A stretch of DNA of 64,000 nt from Pseudomonas triticicola (GTDB lineage Bacteria; Pseudomonadota; Gammaproteobacteria; Pseudomonadales; Pseudomonadaceae): assembly GCF_019145375.1 (NCBI RefSeq), contig NZ_JAHSTX010000001.1, forward strand, positions 528,501 through 592,500, written 5' to 3'. The translations under genes were made by a program, and so were the position numbers. How positions within the stretch are numbered: position 1 is the first letter of the stretch; each line of letters opens with the position of its first letter. Positions 13,009 through 52,673 of the stretch are shown piece by piece. The notes under the pieces are model-generated. The model searched no databases, was not told where the DNA came from, and worked only from the letters and a program-made list of their open reading frames with translations.

Positions 13009-14970
13009 CTACTCGACCTGCAACAGAACCTGACGATTTTTTACCTGATCGCCGACCTTCACTTGCACCCGTTTGAGCACGCCATCGATGCCGGCCTTCA
13101 ACGGATGCTCCATTTTCATTGCCTCCAGCACCACCAGCAATTGACCCTTGCTGACCGTACTGCCTTCGCTGACCAGCACGTCGACAATGGCACCGTCCAT
13201 CGGGGCTTTGAGGGTGCCGGAGGCGACGCTGGTCTGACTGTCGATCGGCGCATGAGTTCGATCCTCCAGGCGCAGGCTGCCCGGATGGGTGAACAGCCAC
13301 AGCTGCTGATCGTGCAGACGATAGGCGTGGCGCTGGCGCAGACCATCAACTTCGATGGTGATCGATTGCGCGGCGTGCTCAATGATTTTCACCTCCACAG
13401 TGCTTTCGCCAGCCTGCACGACCAACTCGCCGGTTTTGCGCGCCAGCACCGACAGCGTCCAGTCCTGTTCGTCACTGCCGAGTCGATAGTGCAACGGCAC
13501 GCTGGCGTTGTTGCGCCAGCCATTCAACGGGGCGCGATGGGGCAGGGCGCTGGCCTGATAGAACAACGCCACGGCAATCGCCAGTTGCGCCGTCGTCGGC
13601 ACATAAGTGTTGAGGCAGGCATGGCTGGAAAAATGTTGCTGGATGAAAGCGGTGCTGAAGTCGCCGCTGATGAACTGCGGATGTTGCAGCAGGCCTTCGA
13701 GCAAGCGTTGGTTGCTTTGCACGCCAAGCAGCACGGTGTCCTGCACCGCTCGCAACAATTTGCGCCGCGCCTCTTCGCGGGTTGCGCCGTGGGCGATCAG
13801 TTTGCCCAGCAGCGGGTCGTAGAACGGGCTCACCGACTGGCCTTCAAGCAGACCGTGATCGATCCGTGCGCCGTGATCCGAAGCCGGTTGCCATGCGGCA
13901 ATTCGGCCGGTTTGCGGAAGAAAATCCGCAGCGGGATCTTCAGCGTAGAGGCGCACTTCCATGGCGTGACCGTCGAGACGGATCTGCTCCTGCGTCAGCG
14001 GTAGCGGCTGGCCCTCGGCAACCAGCAACTGCCATGCGACCAGATCCAGCCCGGTGATCAATTCCGTCACCGGATGCTCGACCTGCAGACGGGTGTTCAT
14101 CTCCAGAAAGTAGAACTGCCCGCACGCGTCGAGGAGGAACTCCACGGTGCCAGCGCCGACGTAATCCACCGCGCGCCCGGCCTTGAGCGCCGCTTCGCCC
14201 ATGGCCTGGCGCAGCTCGGCGGTCATCACCGGGCACGGCGCTTCTTCGATGACTTTCTGATGGCGGCGCTGGATCGAGCAATCGCGTTCGCCGAGGTAGA
14301 CCAGATTGCCGTGCTGGTCGCCGAATAGCTGCACTTCGACATGGCGTGGCTCGACCAACGCTTGCTCGAGAATCAACTCGTCACTGCCGAAACCGTTCAT
14401 TGCTTCGGACCGCGCGGTGCGCAGTTGCGCCGCCAGTTCGCTGGCCTCGTGCACCAGACGCATGCCACGTCCACCGCCGCCGGCGCTGGCCTTGATCATC
14501 AGCGGATAGCCGATGCGTTCGGCTTCGGCCAGCAGCGTCGCGTCGTCCTGCGCTGCGCCTTGATAGCCGGCAATGCACGGCACGCCGGCGTCAAGCATGG
14601 CGATTTTCGACAGGCGTTTGCTGCCCATCAGTTCGATCGCTTCGACGCTGGGGCCGATGAAAGTCAGCCCGGCTTTGGCGCAGGCGCGGGCGAAATCGGC
14701 GTTTTCCGAGAGAAAGCCGTAGCCCGGGTGAATCGCGTCGGCGCCGCTGCGGCGGGCGGCGTCGAGGATCGCCGCAATGTTGAGGTACGACTGCTGCACC
14801 GGCGCCGGGCCGATGTGCACGGCTTGGTCGGCCATTTGCACGTGTAGCGCATCGGCGTCGGCGTCGCTGAACACGGCGACGGTGCGATAACCCAGCGCCT
14901 GGGCCGTGCGCTGGATGCGGCAGGCGATTTCACCGCGGTTGGCGATCAGGATTTTGTGGAGGGTGGGCAT
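13009..14970 (-). CDS. atuF: Geranyl-CoA carboxylase alpha (biotin) subunit AtuF
   Basis: 653 residues from the ATG at 14970. It has a biotin carboxylase (about 1-450) with ILIANRGEIACRI, the ATP-grasp loop KASAGGGGRGMRLV and EMNTRLQVEHPVTE. A linking BT domain follows, then a C-terminal biotinyl domain with EAMKMEH; K619 is the biotinylated lysine. It carboxylates biotin for AtuC to act on geranyl-CoA in citronellol/geraniol breakdown. On its own it could be the LiuD methylcrotonyl-CoA carboxylase subunit, but the atuA-type operon context favours AtuF. A REP pair lies in the 112-base gap between atuE and atuF. Confidence 0.87.
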   Translation of the reverse strand: MPTLHKILIANRGEIACRIQRTAQALGYRTVAVFSDADADALHVQMADQAVHIGPAPVQQSYLNIAAILDAARRSGADAIHPGYGFLSENADFARACAKAGLTFIGPSVEAIELMGSKRLSKIAMLDAGVPCIAGYQGAAQDDATLLAEAERIGYPLMIKASAGGGGRGMRLVHEASELAAQLRTARSEAMNGFGSDELILEQALVEPRHVEVQLFGDQHGNLVYLGERDCSIQRRHQKVIEEAPCPVMTAELRQAMGEAALKAGRAVDYVGAGTVEFLLDACGQFYFLEMNTRLQVEHPVTELITGLDLVAWQLLVAEGQPLPLTQEQIRLDGHAMEVRLYAEDPAADFLPQTGRIAAWQPASDHGARIDHGLLEGQSVSPFYDPLLGKLIAHGATREEARRKLLRAVQDTVLLGVQSNQRLLEGLLQHPQFISGDFSTAFIQQHFSSHACLNTYVPTTAQLAIAVALFYQASALPHRAPLNGWRNNASVPLHYRLGSDEQDWTLSVLARKTGELVVQAGESTVEVKIIEHAAQSITIEVDGLRQRHAYRLHDQQLWLFTHPGSLRLEDRTHAPIDSQTSVASGTLKAPMDGAIVDVLVSEGSTVSKGQLLVVLEAMKMEHPLKAGIDGVLKRVQVKVGDQVKNRQVLLQVE

Positions 14971-15011
14971 GGTGGGGTTCCTGAAATGATAGCGGTGAAT
15001 GGGATGGCCGC

Positions 15012-15079
15012 ATCGCGAGCAGGCTCGCTCCCACATTCGGAATGCATTTCGACCTGTGGGAGCGAGCCTGCTCGCGAAG
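15012..15079. repeat. Inverted REP pair 2, inside the atu operon
   Basis: Two REP copies (15013-15035 and 15055-15078) in opposite orientation fill most of the 112-base gap between atuE and atuF. The stem-loop could stabilise the upstream mRNA or reduce atuF translation. Confidence 0.9.
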
Positions 15080-48479: not shown

Positions 48480-49385
48480 CTACGCTCCGCTCAACCCCTT
48501 GAGCAACAAGTCCACATTCCCCTCCAGCTCCGCCAGCGGATCCGCCGCATCGGTACTCAACACCACCAGACGGCTGCCGGATTCGGCAATCGCCGCTTTC
48601 ACCGGCTCCGCTGGCTGGCGATGGTGTAGCACCACCGCCACGTCATTGTCCTTAAGCGTCGCCGTCAGCTTCTTCAACTCATCTGGCGTCCACTCGGCAT
48701 CAGGCCTCGCATCCTGTCCCGCCAGTTCAAGGTTGAGGCTGCCAATCAGATAGCCGAAGTGATCGCTCAGGCTCATCACGCTCAGGTTGTCCGCCTCGGC
48801 CAGACGCGCTTCGGTGTCCGCGCTGAGTTTCAGCAAACGCTGTTTCAACGCCGCCAGGTTGGCCTCGATCGCAGGCTTGGCGCTCGGCGCCAGGCGCACC
48901 AGGTCTGCGGCCATCACATCGGCCATGCGCCCCATGTTGTTGCTCGCCAGCCATGGCTGACTGTTCAGGCCATCAACCTGCAGGCCCGGCTGCACGGCGA
49001 TGCCGGGCAGGGCGCCGTCGACCGGGCGCGCAGCGTCGACTTCGACGATACGGATATTGCTGCGCCGCGCGATCGGGTACAGCGGATCATCGGTCCACAG
49101 CGAACGCAGACCGATTACCGCGTCCGCGTCGGCGGCCAGTTTGCTCAGCGCCGGAGCGCCACGGCCGGTGAAATACGCAGTCTGACGGCTACCCGGAAGG
49201 TTGGCCGGCGCCGCACGTTCGAGTTTGACGTCGGTACCCTTGAGCAATACTTCGCCCAATCCATAGGTGATCGGTAACGAGGCCAGAACGCGCAACGGTT
49301 TCGCAGTTTCAGCCGCCATCAACGGAGTGCAGACCACGCCACACAGGGCCATGGCCAGAGTCAGGTTACGCAATGAAAAAGCCAT
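48480..49385 (-). CDS. fpvF: Periplasmic metal-binding protein FpvF
   Basis: 301 residues with signal peptide (to AAETAK, about residue 25) and a ZnuA/cluster-9 binding-protein fold: LRVLASLPITYGLGEVLLKGTDVKLERAAPAN and a late VAVVLHHRQPAEPVK. It lacks the His-rich loop of true zinc binders. In P. aeruginosa FpvF and FpvC act together as the periplasmic partners of the FpvDE transporter, taking part in iron release from ferripyoverdine. It is the last of eight genes in the operon and starts right after fpvE. Confidence 0.85.
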   Translation of the reverse strand: MAFSLRNLTLAMALCGVVCTPLMAAETAKPLRVLASLPITYGLGEVLLKGTDVKLERAAPANLPGSRQTAYFTGRGAPALSKLAADADAVIGLRSLWTDDPLYPIARRSNIRIVEVDAARPVDGALPGIAVQPGLQVDGLNSQPWLASNNMGRMADVMAADLVRLAPSAKPAIEANLAALKQRLLKLSADTEARLAEADNLSVMSLSDHFGYLIGSLNLELAGQDARPDAEWTPDELKKLTATLKDNDVAVVLHHRQPAEPVKAAIAESGSRLVVLSTDAADPLAELEGNVDLLLKGLSGA

Positions 49386-50285
49386 TTATCCAAGGTTCCC
49401 TTTCAGGCTGGGGACGACGCCGCGCGCGATGGCGGCGAGGGCGAAAGCGATGCCGGCGACCAGAATGATCGCGGCGCCGGACGGGATCGGCAGGTCGAAC
49501 ACGATCGGCGCAAGAATCCCGCACAGGGTGCTGGCGGTAGCGATCAGCACCGAGCACCAGAAAAAGCCTTTCAGCGACTGACTGAGCAAGCGCGCCGCCG
49601 CCGCAGGAATCACCAGCAAGGCACCGACCAGAATCGCGCCAATCACCTTCACTGCCGCGACGGTGATCAAGGTCACCAGGATCACGAACAGGTAATCCAG
49701 GGTCTTCACCGCTACGCCACGCACCGCCGCCAGTTGCGGATTGAAACTGGCGAGCATGATGCGGTTGTACAGCGGCAGGGCGAGGGCCATGACCAGCGAA
49801 CCGACGATGGCCAGCACCGCCAGATCATTGCCGTTGACGGTCAACACCGAACCGAACAGCACGTTTTCCAGAATGTGCACGTTGATCTTGCCGGCGAGAA
49901 TCAGCAGCAGGCTCGCGCCCAGCGCCAGTGACACCGAGAGAAACACGCCGATCAGCGTATCCGGTGCCAGTCCGGTGCGGTTGCGCAGGTAATTGAGCAG
50001 GATGCCGAACAGCAGGCAGTAACCGAACAGGCTGCCGTACGGGCCGGTGTAGGGTTCGCCGAGCAGGATGCCGATGGCGACACCGGTCAACGCGGCATGG
50101 CCGACTGCTTCGGAAAAGAACGCGAAGCGCTTGACCACCACCAGCGTGCCGAGCCCGCCGAGCACGGGGCCGATCAGCAGGCCGGCGAGCAGCGCATTGA
50201 CCACAAAACCGTAGGCCAGCGCCTCGGGCAGATAACCGGAAGACGCCCAACCCTGGACCATCAAACGAAAGGCTTCGTAATTCAT
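49386..50285 (-). CDS. fpvE: ABC transporter permease FpvE
   Basis: 299 residues, eight or nine membrane spans of the ABC-3 (ZnuB-type) family: ALLAGLLIGPVLGGLGTLVVVKRFAFFSEAVGHAALTGVAIG is the coupling segment near residue 30, and VKVIGAILVGALLVIPAAAARLL near 210 is diagnostic. It forms the membrane channel with FpvD. Its start overlaps the fpvD stop by one base. Confidence 0.88.
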   Translation of the reverse strand: MNYEAFRLMVQGWASSGYLPEALAYGFVVNALLAGLLIGPVLGGLGTLVVVKRFAFFSEAVGHAALTGVAIGILLGEPYTGPYGSLFGYCLLFGILLNYLRNRTGLAPDTLIGVFLSVSLALGASLLLILAGKINVHILENVLFGSVLTVNGNDLAVLAIVGSLVMALALPLYNRIMLASFNPQLAAVRGVAVKTLDYLFVILVTLITVAAVKVIGAILVGALLVIPAAAARLLSQSLKGFFWCSVLIATASTLCGILAPIVFDLPIPSGAAIILVAGIAFALAAIARGVVPSLKGNLG

Positions 50286-51136
50286 CAGACCGCGCTCCGT
50301 GGATGGGTGGAAAACAGCGTCAGCAGACGCTCCGGAGTCAGCGCCTGTTGCGGTGTGGCATCGAACAGCACGCGGCGGTTGAGACCGGTAACCCGATCGG
50401 CCAGCCGACCCACCGCTTCCAGGTCATGCTCGATCCACAGCACCGTGACTCCCGCCGCGCGCCAGTCAGTCAGCAGACGTTCGAACACTTGGATCCCGGC
50501 CTCATCGAGGGCCGACATCGGCTCGTCGAGCACCAGCAGTTGCGGCGCCGGAATCAAGCCCTGCGCGAGCAGCACCCGCTGCCGCTCGCCGCCGGACAGC
50601 GCGCCCATGCGGCGCTTGCGCTTGTCCTGCATGCCGACCCGCTCCAGTGCCTCGCCGATGGCGCCGGCGTAGTGTTTGCTCAAACCGAGAAAGGCTGGGC
50701 GGCGCTGACACATCGCCGCCATGAAATCGTCGACGGTCATCGGCAAGCCGCGATCGAACTCCAGCGCCTGCGGGACGTAACCAATGGTGCCGGGCTCGCC
50801 GGGCCAGTGCAGGCTGAGCTGGCCCTGATGCGGCATTTGCCCGAGCAGGGTCTTGATCAGCGAACTCTTGCCACCGCCGTTGGGGCCGACCAGCGCATGC
50901 ACGCTGCCGGGCTGCACCTGGAAGCTGACCTTGTCGAGAATCGTCGTGCGCCCCAGGGTAAGGCTCACTTCCGCAAACTCCAGCGATGGCCCGGTTATCC
51001 CCTGTGGGAGCGAGCCTGCTCGCGATTGCGGAGTGTCATTCAACAAAGATGTCGCCTGATCCGGCGCCTTCGCGAGCAGGCTCGCTCCCACAGGCGGTTC
51101 GGCGTGATCGGCGAGCAAGGTTTCTTTCGACGTCAT
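50285..51136 (-). CDS. fpvD: ABC transporter ATPase FpvD with REP-derived N-terminal insert
   Basis: 283 residues, with Walker A GPNGGGKSS near residue 78, the signature LSGGERQRVLLAQ near residue 182, and Walker B LLVLDEPMSALD near residue 202. The ATPase fold begins only at LEFAEVSLTL near residue 51. Before that, residues about 15-45 (VGASLLAK...SRAGSLPQG) are encoded by an inverted REP pair of 90 bases, kept in frame. The ATG at 51136 overlaps the fpvC stop (ATGA). No other good start exists after the repeat. It powers the FpvCDEF transporter in ferripyoverdine iron recovery. Confidence 0.87.
   Translation of the reverse strand: MTSKETLLADHAEPPVGASLLAKAPDQATSLLNDTPQSRAGSLPQGITGPSLEFAEVSLTLGRTTILDKVSFQVQPGSVHALVGPNGGGKSSLIKTLLGQMPHQGQLSLHWPGEPGTIGYVPQALEFDRGLPMTVDDFMAAMCQRRPAFLGLSKHYAGAIGEALERVGMQDKRKRRMGALSGGERQRVLLAQGLIPAPQLLVLDEPMSALDEAGIQVFERLLTDWRAAGVTVLWIEHDLEAVGRLADRVTGLNRRVLFDATPQQALTPERLLTLFSTHPRSAV
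51003..51092. repeat. Inverted REP pair 7, inside the fpvD reading frame
   Basis: REP copies at 51003-51025 and 51070-51092 in opposite orientation. The 90-base unit is a multiple of three and is translated as about residues 15-45 of FpvD. Confidence 0.92.
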
Positions 51137-52062
51137 GCCCCCGACTCCTGAATCGCCCGAACCACGGTGTTGAGGTTGCCGGTCATTTCCTTTTCGTACT
51201 TGTCGGCGGTGTATTGGCCGTAGGAAATGTGCGACAGCGGGTACAGCTTCACCCCGGATTCGCGCTGGATGGTGTCGACGTAGCTGGAGGGGAAATCCAT
51301 CTCGGAGAAGATCACTTTGACGTCGAGTTCACGCAACTGGTCGATGGTTTTTTTCAGCTGGCTCGGGCTTGGCTCGATGCCGTGGGCCGGCTCGACCACG
51401 GCCGTCACTTCCAGACCGAATTCACGCAACAGATAGTCGTAAGCCGCATGCACTGTGGCCACGCGCAGTTCGGCGTTCGGTGCCTGGGTCAGTTTGGCCA
51501 AGGCGTCGGCGCGCATCTGCCGCAGGCGTTTGCCGTAAGCGCGGGCGTTTTGCGTGTAGGTCTTGGCATTGTCCGGATCGATCTTGCCCAGCTCGCGGGC
51601 GATGTTGTTGACCTGGGCGATGGAGGCGCTGATCGACAGGAACGTGTGCGGATTGACCACTTTGCCAGCGCCGCGCGCAGCGACACCGGTGGCCGCCAGC
51701 AATGGCACGTTCTCGTTGGCTTCGATGGTTTTGACGTTGGGTGTTTCGCTGGCGGCGATCATCCGGTCGGCGAAGTCGTCATGACCGACGCCGTTGAGCA
51801 CGATCACGTCCAGTCCGCTGATGCGCTTGATGTCTTCGGCGCGCGGTTCGTAGGCGTGCGGATTAAAGCCCGCAGGAATCAGCGGCACCACTTCGGCCTT
51901 GTCGCCAACGATGTTGGCGACGTAGCTGTAATACGGATGCAGAGTGATGCCGATACGCAGGCGTTTGCCTTGCTCGGCGCTGGCCAACGGACTCAGCAGG
52001 CAGGCGCACAGGCCAAGCAGAAACAGGCGTAACAAGGGACGGCGAGGAGATGAAATGGACAT
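51133..52062 (-). CDS. fpvC: Periplasmic metal-binding protein FpvC
   Basis: 309 residues from ATG 52062 (a TTG at 52101 is an alternative). Signal peptide RRPLLRLFLLGLCACLLSPLASAEQ. Cluster-9 binding protein motifs: RIGITLHPYYSYVANIVGDKAEV, PAGFNPHAYEPRAEDIKRI, KVVNPHTFLSISA and VVEPAHGIEPSPSQLK, with the histidines that hold metal. In P. aeruginosa it takes part in iron removal from pyoverdine in the periplasm. It overlaps fpvD by four bases. Confidence 0.88.
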   Translation of the reverse strand: MSISSPRRPLLRLFLLGLCACLLSPLASAEQGKRLRIGITLHPYYSYVANIVGDKAEVVPLIPAGFNPHAYEPRAEDIKRISGLDVIVLNGVGHDDFADRMIAASETPNVKTIEANENVPLLAATGVAARGAGKVVNPHTFLSISASIAQVNNIARELGKIDPDNAKTYTQNARAYGKRLRQMRADALAKLTQAPNAELRVATVHAAYDYLLREFGLEVTAVVEPAHGIEPSPSQLKKTIDQLRELDVKVIFSEMDFPSSYVDTIQRESGVKLYPLSHISYGQYTADKYEKEMTGNLNTVVRAIQESGA

Positions 52063-52097
52063 GGGCAAGCAGTCTTCTCTCGGATAAAGGCGAGGAA

Positions 52098-52673
52098 TCA
52101 ATGGCGATGTTCGCGGGTAACCCCGGCATCGAATTGCGCGACGATCTGTTTCCAGCCAGCGGCGGACAGCGCGGCGTCAGACAGATCTTCAGCAGGCGCG
52201 GGATCGGCGCTGCGCTTGAGCCAGATGTCCGGCGCCGCGTTGGCGTCAGTGCCGACACGCATCAGAAATGAACCGGCGACATCAGGCGTCGCACTACGGC
52301 CGAAATAGGCGCGTTCGGCGAGCATCTGCCATGCGTGACCGCCACGGCTGACCGAGCTGGCGTCCTGGGCGAACGGCGCGAAGCCTTCGTTGGCCAGCAT
52401 CTGTGGCGTCGGCAGGGCTTGTTGCTCTTCGCGCAGCAGGCGGATTTCGTCGAGGGTCACTCGCAGGTCGGCATAGATGCCTTGCTCGGCGGCGCTGAGA
52501 TCGCGGCGGGCGTCGTACTGGTTGCTCGCGACCGGCTCCGGTTCATGGGAAACCCCGCGCCACGCCACCACCGAGCCGGCGACCGCGAGGATCAGCAGGC
52601 ACGACAGCAGCACGTTGAGGGTTTCATGGCCGGCGCCGGCCGGGCGTACCACTTGCGTCGTCGGGCTACTCAT
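52098..52673 (-). CDS. fpvK: FpvK-like membrane-anchored protein
   Basis: 191 residues: a short cytosolic N-terminus, one span (LNVLLSCLLILAVAGSVVAW, about 19-38), and a periplasmic part with a helical segment (YADLRVTLDEIRLLREEQQAL) and a histidine-rich end (REHRH). No enzymatic motif is seen. Its position between fpvJ and fpvC matches fpvK (PA2406). It overlaps fpvJ by four bases. Role: part of the FpvGHJK reductase complex. Confidence 0.8.
   Translation of the reverse strand: MSSPTTQVVRPAGAGHETLNVLLSCLLILAVAGSVVAWRGVSHEPEPVASNQYDARRDLSAAEQGIYADLRVTLDEIRLLREEQQALPTPQMLANEGFAPFAQDASSVSRGGHAWQMLAERAYFGRSATPDVAGSFLMRVGTDANAAPDIWLKRSADPAPAEDLSDAALSAAGWKQIVAQFDAGVTREHRH

Follow-up and report, generated by a model that had tools for sequence, protein, structure and literature searches.

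Can a mobile repeat that normally lies between genes become part of a protein and stay there? The question is raised by a 64,000-nucleotide stretch of Pseudomonas triticicola DNA (contig NZ_JAHSTX010000001.1, positions 528,501 to 592,500), hereafter the window, in which an inverted pair of REP units sits near the start of fpvD. Our preferred reading, to which we give a probability of about 0.7, is that an old in-frame REPIN insertion is translated, is tolerated as a disordered tail and is probably still being homogenised with the REPINs of the genome.

A REPIN inside the reading frame of fpvD

The fpvD open reading frame (50285..51136, minus strand) has an ATG start and 283 codons for the ABC ATPase of a predicted FpvCDEF iron transporter. 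Upstream lies fpvC (51133..52101, minus strand), which encodes a ZnuA-like periplasmic binding protein (PF01297), and the fpvC stop overlaps the fpvD start in an ATGA at 51133..51136 on the minus strand, a junction that the earlier note had already described as kept. fpvD ends where an ABC-3 permease gene begins (49386-50285), and a second gene for a ZnuA-like protein lies at 48480-49385, both assigned by open reading frame and domain match. The name fpvD was chosen because of this gene order (ZnuA-like, permease, ZnuA-like) together with the description of an fpvGHJKCDEF order and an FpvCDEF transporter in P. aeruginosa, as given in excerpts of PMC6954188. The likeness to that system is one of gene names and neighbourhood; what would set the FpvD of the clade studied here apart is its N-terminal tail, which derives from a repeat. 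ABC_tran (PF00005) matches FpvD at residues 67-207, placing an ABC ATPase within an fpvC-fpvD-fpvE-fpvF operon order, and none of the best 25 of 188 NCBIfam families reaches its cut-off for the protein.

The repeat occupies 51001..51094, with codon 15 of the minus-strand gene beginning at 51094 and codon 46 at 51001, and was recognised from its inverted repeat and its exact REP 22-mers. One REP unit forms the 5' arm in the mRNA (51070..51091, minus strand) and the other the 3' arm (51004..51025, plus strand), both as exact 22-mers, separated by a protein-coding spacer or loop (51026..51069, minus strand). The whole palindrome (51001-51045 against 51050-51094) has arms that are 80% complementary. 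Two inverted REP units flank a spacer and can pair into a hairpin, so that by sequence the fpvD repeat is a normal REPIN; what is unusual is its location. The fpvD frame is open across all of it, and residues 15-46 are encoded by the repeat, close to the residues of about 15-45 proposed earlier. Thirteen leader codons, 2-14 (51095..51133, minus strand), delimited by sequence and by comparison between species, precede it.

The repeat had been described as 90 bases long and a multiple of three, which does not hold: the palindrome measures 94 nt, or 88 nt from GTG to CAC, and neither length is divisible by three. The frame is kept because the gene is, on balance, longer than its empty counterpart by whole codons: the ATG and the ATPase core are 174 nt apart in the window, whereas 50 of the 51 empty rows have 66 nt and the remaining one 57 nt.

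The ATPase fold probably begins after the repeat, with a first strand at about residue 51 and the fold extending over 50285..50986 (minus strand). This placement draws on a low-confidence structure model built from an alignment (mean pLDDT 51), in which a strand spans residues 51-61 and residues 1-40 have a pLDDT of about 30, both values giving weak support, and on PDB alignments. The closest metal transporter chains, 7kyo_B and 9oko_D, align from FpvD residues 57 and 54, while more distant chains start elsewhere, between residues 38 and 179.

Related copies in the window and the genome

Seven REP pairs occur in the window, comprising 14 matches to the 22-mer (13 exact, one with a single mismatch), and 100 shuffles gave none. 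Judged from open reading frames, the other six pairs are all intergenic; the fpvD REPIN lies within a reading frame and is hence a variant copy. The type is abundant, with 305 full REPINs in the P. triticicola genome against 0 for the reversed control. Among 20 further REPIN stretches from this genome, read by eye and mostly picked for long open frames, we found no clear second coding case. A search for proteins containing the peptide of FpvD residues 11-51, weakened by its word filter, gave four matches among seven candidates; three are fpvD, and the fourth (P0121) is a hypothetical protein composed of several REPs.

The same REPs lie on both flanks of a RAYT-like Y1_Tnp gene (L201, G000:C1:2769293-2769586), which has a TAA inside the match; this candidate cognate transposase may be inactive. 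A second Y1 transposase (L200, G000:C2:782230-782553) has none of these REPs nearby and adjoins an array of another repeat family, whose translation gives a recurring peptide in several frames. Elsewhere, five REPINs follow each other at a spacing of about 135 bp (G000:C1:1490887-1491513).

The mRNA hairpin

The fpvD REPIN is predicted to fold into a very stable hairpin, at -77.8 kcal/mol with a z score of -10.85, or -6.88 in its context. The earlier note had placed it right after the start codon; its first base is in fact nt +43, 42 nt past the A of the ATG. Nucleotide +43 falls beyond the ribosomal initiation footprint, and an effect on initiation is therefore unlikely. A predicted hairpin at this place could possibly act on elongation or on mRNA decay.

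The reading frame is kept across relatives

All 137 retained insert rows (107 distinct segments) have a length that is a multiple of three and a frame 0 that is open, with no stop; of the two alternative forward frames, one is open in none of the 137 and the other in 8. This count excludes L019 and L025 (both broken), L023, L144, L145, L114, L133, L153/L228 and L164, the last of which has an N in the insert; L083 was dropped by the motif filter although its frame is open. Lengths are far from fixed: the leader takes seven values with at least 39 changes on the tree, and the insert six values with at least 28. The less biased subset gave the same picture, with 59 of 59 rows in frame through at least 26 leader and at least 15 insert length changes. 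The leader sits past the fpvC stop, so fpvC does not account for its frame. Since the frame is kept through so many length changes in both leader and insert, the REPIN is almost certainly translated as part of fpvD, as far as comparative sequence can tell.

Were the repeat untranslated, FpvD would start inside or after the REPIN and the upstream frame would be incidental. Some database proteins (P0049, P0053-P0055) do begin at a methionine in the loop, the window has a GTG at codon 57, and an in-frame ATG, GTG or TTG occurs past the REPIN in 44 of the 137 rows. The remaining 93 have none, the codon-57 GTG recurs in 4 of 96 rows, and the ATGA start is common to the empty form as well; together with the leader's length changes, this leaves an untranslated repeat very improbable. 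There is no conserved start beyond the repeat of the kind that could have overturned the earlier proposal. In the 10 of 96 rows that have a methionine in the loop, its ATG could serve as an internal start.

Distribution across Pseudomonas

In a protein search, the best 120 of 6,734 matches were, for fpvD, mainly insert forms of about 282 amino acids and empty forms of about 248. We then sampled 398 Pseudomonas genomes and recovered an fpvD orthologue, at 1e-118, from 296 of them. Among the 150 orthologue rows listed, 61 match through the insert and 89 without it or only partly. DNA was read for 116 of these rows, namely all 61 insert-matching ones and 55 of the 89 others, giving 60 with an in-frame REPIN, 49 empty and seven otherwise. 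The seven comprise a broken gene (G034), a diverged in-frame remnant (G391), a run of N (G440) and four genes from which the REPIN is wholly or largely deleted, in frame in G021, G319 and G149 and out of frame in G046. Two orthologues beyond the 150 listed, in G035 and G044, are empty.

A scan of named genomes added 80 loci with the insert in whole or part, in P. koreensis, P. jessenii, P. frederiksbergensis, P. umsongensis, P. lini, P. migulae and P. siliginis among others. These loci were picked by score and are thus biased towards intact inserts, the 398-genome sample being less biased, and the two sets partly overlap in species and genomes. Short orthologues do exist, as the earlier account needed: 51 of the 171 loci compared have the empty form, in sister species. 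In-frame, open rows on one side and empty orthologues on the other bear out its central proposal that a mobile, normally extragenic repeat has turned into protein sequence. Five of the 171 loci (L023, L025, L144, L145 and L114) are without one or both arms.

Some single loci deserve mention. In L025 (G046), a frame-shifting deletion breaks the fpvD N-terminus, with fpvC and fpvE open. The N-terminus is likewise broken in L019 (G034), by a TGA and two small homopolymer indels, again with fpvC and fpvE open; the homopolymer indels may be sequencing errors. In L133 (G298), the end of fpvC and the start of fpvD appear to be duplicated in tandem, with a second REPIN-bearing leader upstream in the same open frame.

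History of the insertion

In a tree of 169 loci, built from the fpvC-fpvD region with the insert excluded (a region that may itself recombine), one clade with an SH-aLRT of 97 contains all 114 insert-class rows, together with 16 empty rows and four that derive from the insert form by deletion; the 114 include the broken L019, the partial L114 and the diverged L153. Outside this clade the remaining 35 rows are all empty. On the main tree, with just 41 of 151 inner branches starred, the empty label requires 14 changes, at least seven of them forced by starred branches. At residue 4, 136 of the 139 insert rows have K, R or N and the other three Q, whereas all 16 empty rows of the same clade have Q, a split that favours two allele lineages over repeated excision. 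The data fit, and do not prove, a single insertion on one allele lineage, followed by allele exchange between species and by secondary deletions that left REP remnants.

Several independent insertions of a resident REPIN at one spot, in place of one insertion and later conversion, would also account for the 14 changes in the empty label. Yet the insert rows have a common leader haplotype, seen at residue 4, the retained rows have the same place and reading frame, and allele exchange can explain the empty rows within the clade; we regard independent insertions as rather unlikely. In our preferred account, a complete REPIN would have inserted, most likely once, near fpvD codon 10, in frame and in a stop-free reading, in the common ancestor of a large group within the P. 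fluorescens complex.

Selection on the peptide and on the DNA

Rates were taken as uncorrected pairwise counts over 96 distinct rows of 111, duplicates being removed for this purpose only, after exclusion of L019, L164, L133, L114 and L153. pN/pS was 0.055-0.067 in the ATPase core, 0.26-0.32 in the left arm, 0.37-0.60 in the leader, 0.64-0.82 in the right arm and 0.64-0.88 in the REPIN loop, which appears to evolve nearly neutrally as protein.

If the encoded peptide had a selected function in iron uptake, its retention across many species would be expected, and the arms are indeed conserved as protein too (VGASLLAK, SRAGSLPQ), the left arm with a low pN/pS. The values for the loop and right arm speak against such a function, as do partial in-frame deletions (L144, L145 and L114; proteins P0046 and P0052). 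Moreover, protein cluster P0060, with 498 member sequences, is an fpvD that reads the REPIN in another frame and meets no stop there; which amino acids the repeat encodes thus seems to be of no importance. A function of this kind is, in our estimate, improbable. The repeat peptide would instead be a disordered, nearly neutral N-terminal tail, presumably tolerated because the ATPase fold begins after it.

At the DNA level the arms behave differently from the core. Over all pairs, pS is 0.16-0.17 in the arms versus 0.44 in the core, and over the closest 10 pairs 0.05-0.07 versus 0.13. Codon use in the arms is nearly fixed, with CGA for arginine in 94 of 96 rows and TCG for serine in 93 of 96. 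Few synonymous changes and nearly fixed codons indicate conservation of the arms at the level of DNA (or RNA), beyond their protein sequence. Opposite positions in the two arms also covary, agreement being commoner than mismatch. Across the 96 rows, the C/T site reads C-G in 43, T-A in 26, C-A in 16, T-G in 9 and otherwise in 2, and the A/G site A-T in 70, G-C in 11, A-C in 8, G-T in 5 and A-G in 2; T-G and G-T can form wobble pairs in RNA.

The arms could therefore be kept by selection on the mRNA hairpin, through slower elongation or protection of the mRNA between fpvC and fpvDEF, and not by contact with other REPINs. The stability of the fold, the scarcity of synonymous changes and the covariation all agree with this, nine of the 25 unmatched C/T-site rows being T-G, an RNA wobble pair. 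But the true C-A mismatches at that site, the five loci that lost one or both arms and the lack of any prediction that the arm variant should follow the REP type of the host make hairpin selection an unlikely explanation, if one to be taken seriously.

The arms tend to match the REP type of the host

Three REP variants were counted, forward plus reverse, in 61 whole genomes, a fourth variant being left out. The fpvD arm sites agree with the commonest host variant at 51 of 57, 46 of 59, 49 of 58 and 45 of 59 called sites; the left A/G site is uncalled in the long-arm rows L218, L219 and L225, and single sites are uncalled or outside the two letters in L126, L217, L228, L221 and L020. In five genomes the leading REP type accounts for no more than roughly half of the copies of these three variants. 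Phylogenetically independent pairs gave 6:0 (136 of 200 pairings) or 6:1 (64 of 200) for the left A/G site and 5:0 to 8:0 for the right one, each with a median p of 0.03. For the C/T site the trend was alike but not significant in these pairs (median p 0.22 left, 0.125 right).

The host REP population switches type at least 13 times on the tree, so simple descent is not expected to keep the fpvD arms in step with it. Because the arms are REP-like at synonymous sites and tend toward the dominant host variant, the fpvD copy is probably still coupled to the host REPIN population at the DNA level, a moderately supported step, and most simply through short gene-conversion tracts. Matching of host type would also result from repeated insertion, the main rival here; the simplest account is that resident copies convert the one in fpvD. 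It does not extend to every feature of the arms. A 15-bp long-arm form differs between near relatives, in one arm only, and exact copies of it number one in the G264 genome (fpvD itself), none in G243 and G005, and 55 in G381, counting exact matches only. As the form is rare in most fpvD carriers, its presence is not accounted for by conversion from donors in high copy number. A bolder version, in which conversion from hundreds of resident REPINs rewrites the FpvD N-terminus again and again, in frame, and a host protein thus evolves in concert with selfish DNA, is tentative, and we put it at somewhat short of even odds.

Relation to known systems

The fpvD REPIN is real and widespread in one clade; as protein it is most likely a neutral tail, and its DNA probably stays coupled to the REPINs of the genome. 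Palindromic elements inside protein genes have a precedent in Rickettsia, reportedly described by Ogata et al. in 2000 and 2002. In-frame coding palindromes of that genus are known also from a review (excerpts of PMC10969869), and the likeness is that a mobile palindrome has entered protein genes without breaking their frame; the fpvD case too is an in-frame insertion in a conserved gene with an empty orthologue. The Rickettsia elements occupy many genes per genome, whereas the REPIN shows here one clear case, with signs of continued homogenisation with resident copies. We treat the two as presumably different element families.

REPINs themselves were defined as extragenic doublets, 14 of 1,067 16-mers overlapping genes in strain SBW25 (Bertels and Rainey 2011, excerpts of PMC3116915). 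To the P. fluorescens REPIN/RAYT system of that source, as far as the excerpts describe it, the elements studied here are alike in the inverted REP pair, spacer, hairpin, high copy number and REP-flanked Y1-type transposase gene; compared with its extragenic REPINs, the fpvD copy differs as an in-frame coding segment kept across species. A partial literature search, covering titles and the openings of abstracts, found no description of an in-frame REP or REPIN case like fpvD.

A REPIN that is read as protein across a large group of species means that REPINs can be tolerated inside genes. The fpvD copy may serve as a natural record of how REPINs turn over, since each event that survives must keep the frame, and it makes gene conversion between REPIN copies testable. 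For annotation it is a warning that REP-derived peptides can be real.

Two other places bring REPs close to gene starts. At 15013-15077 of the window, a REP 22-mer lies beside the mechanical ATG of a long open reading frame (13009-15036), whose real start is likely downstream (MPTLHKILIANRGE), a misannotation hazard. In L199 (G000:C1:4144000-4146000), a lipoprotein-like open reading frame continues in frame, ahead of its signal peptide, into an immediately adjacent REPIN.
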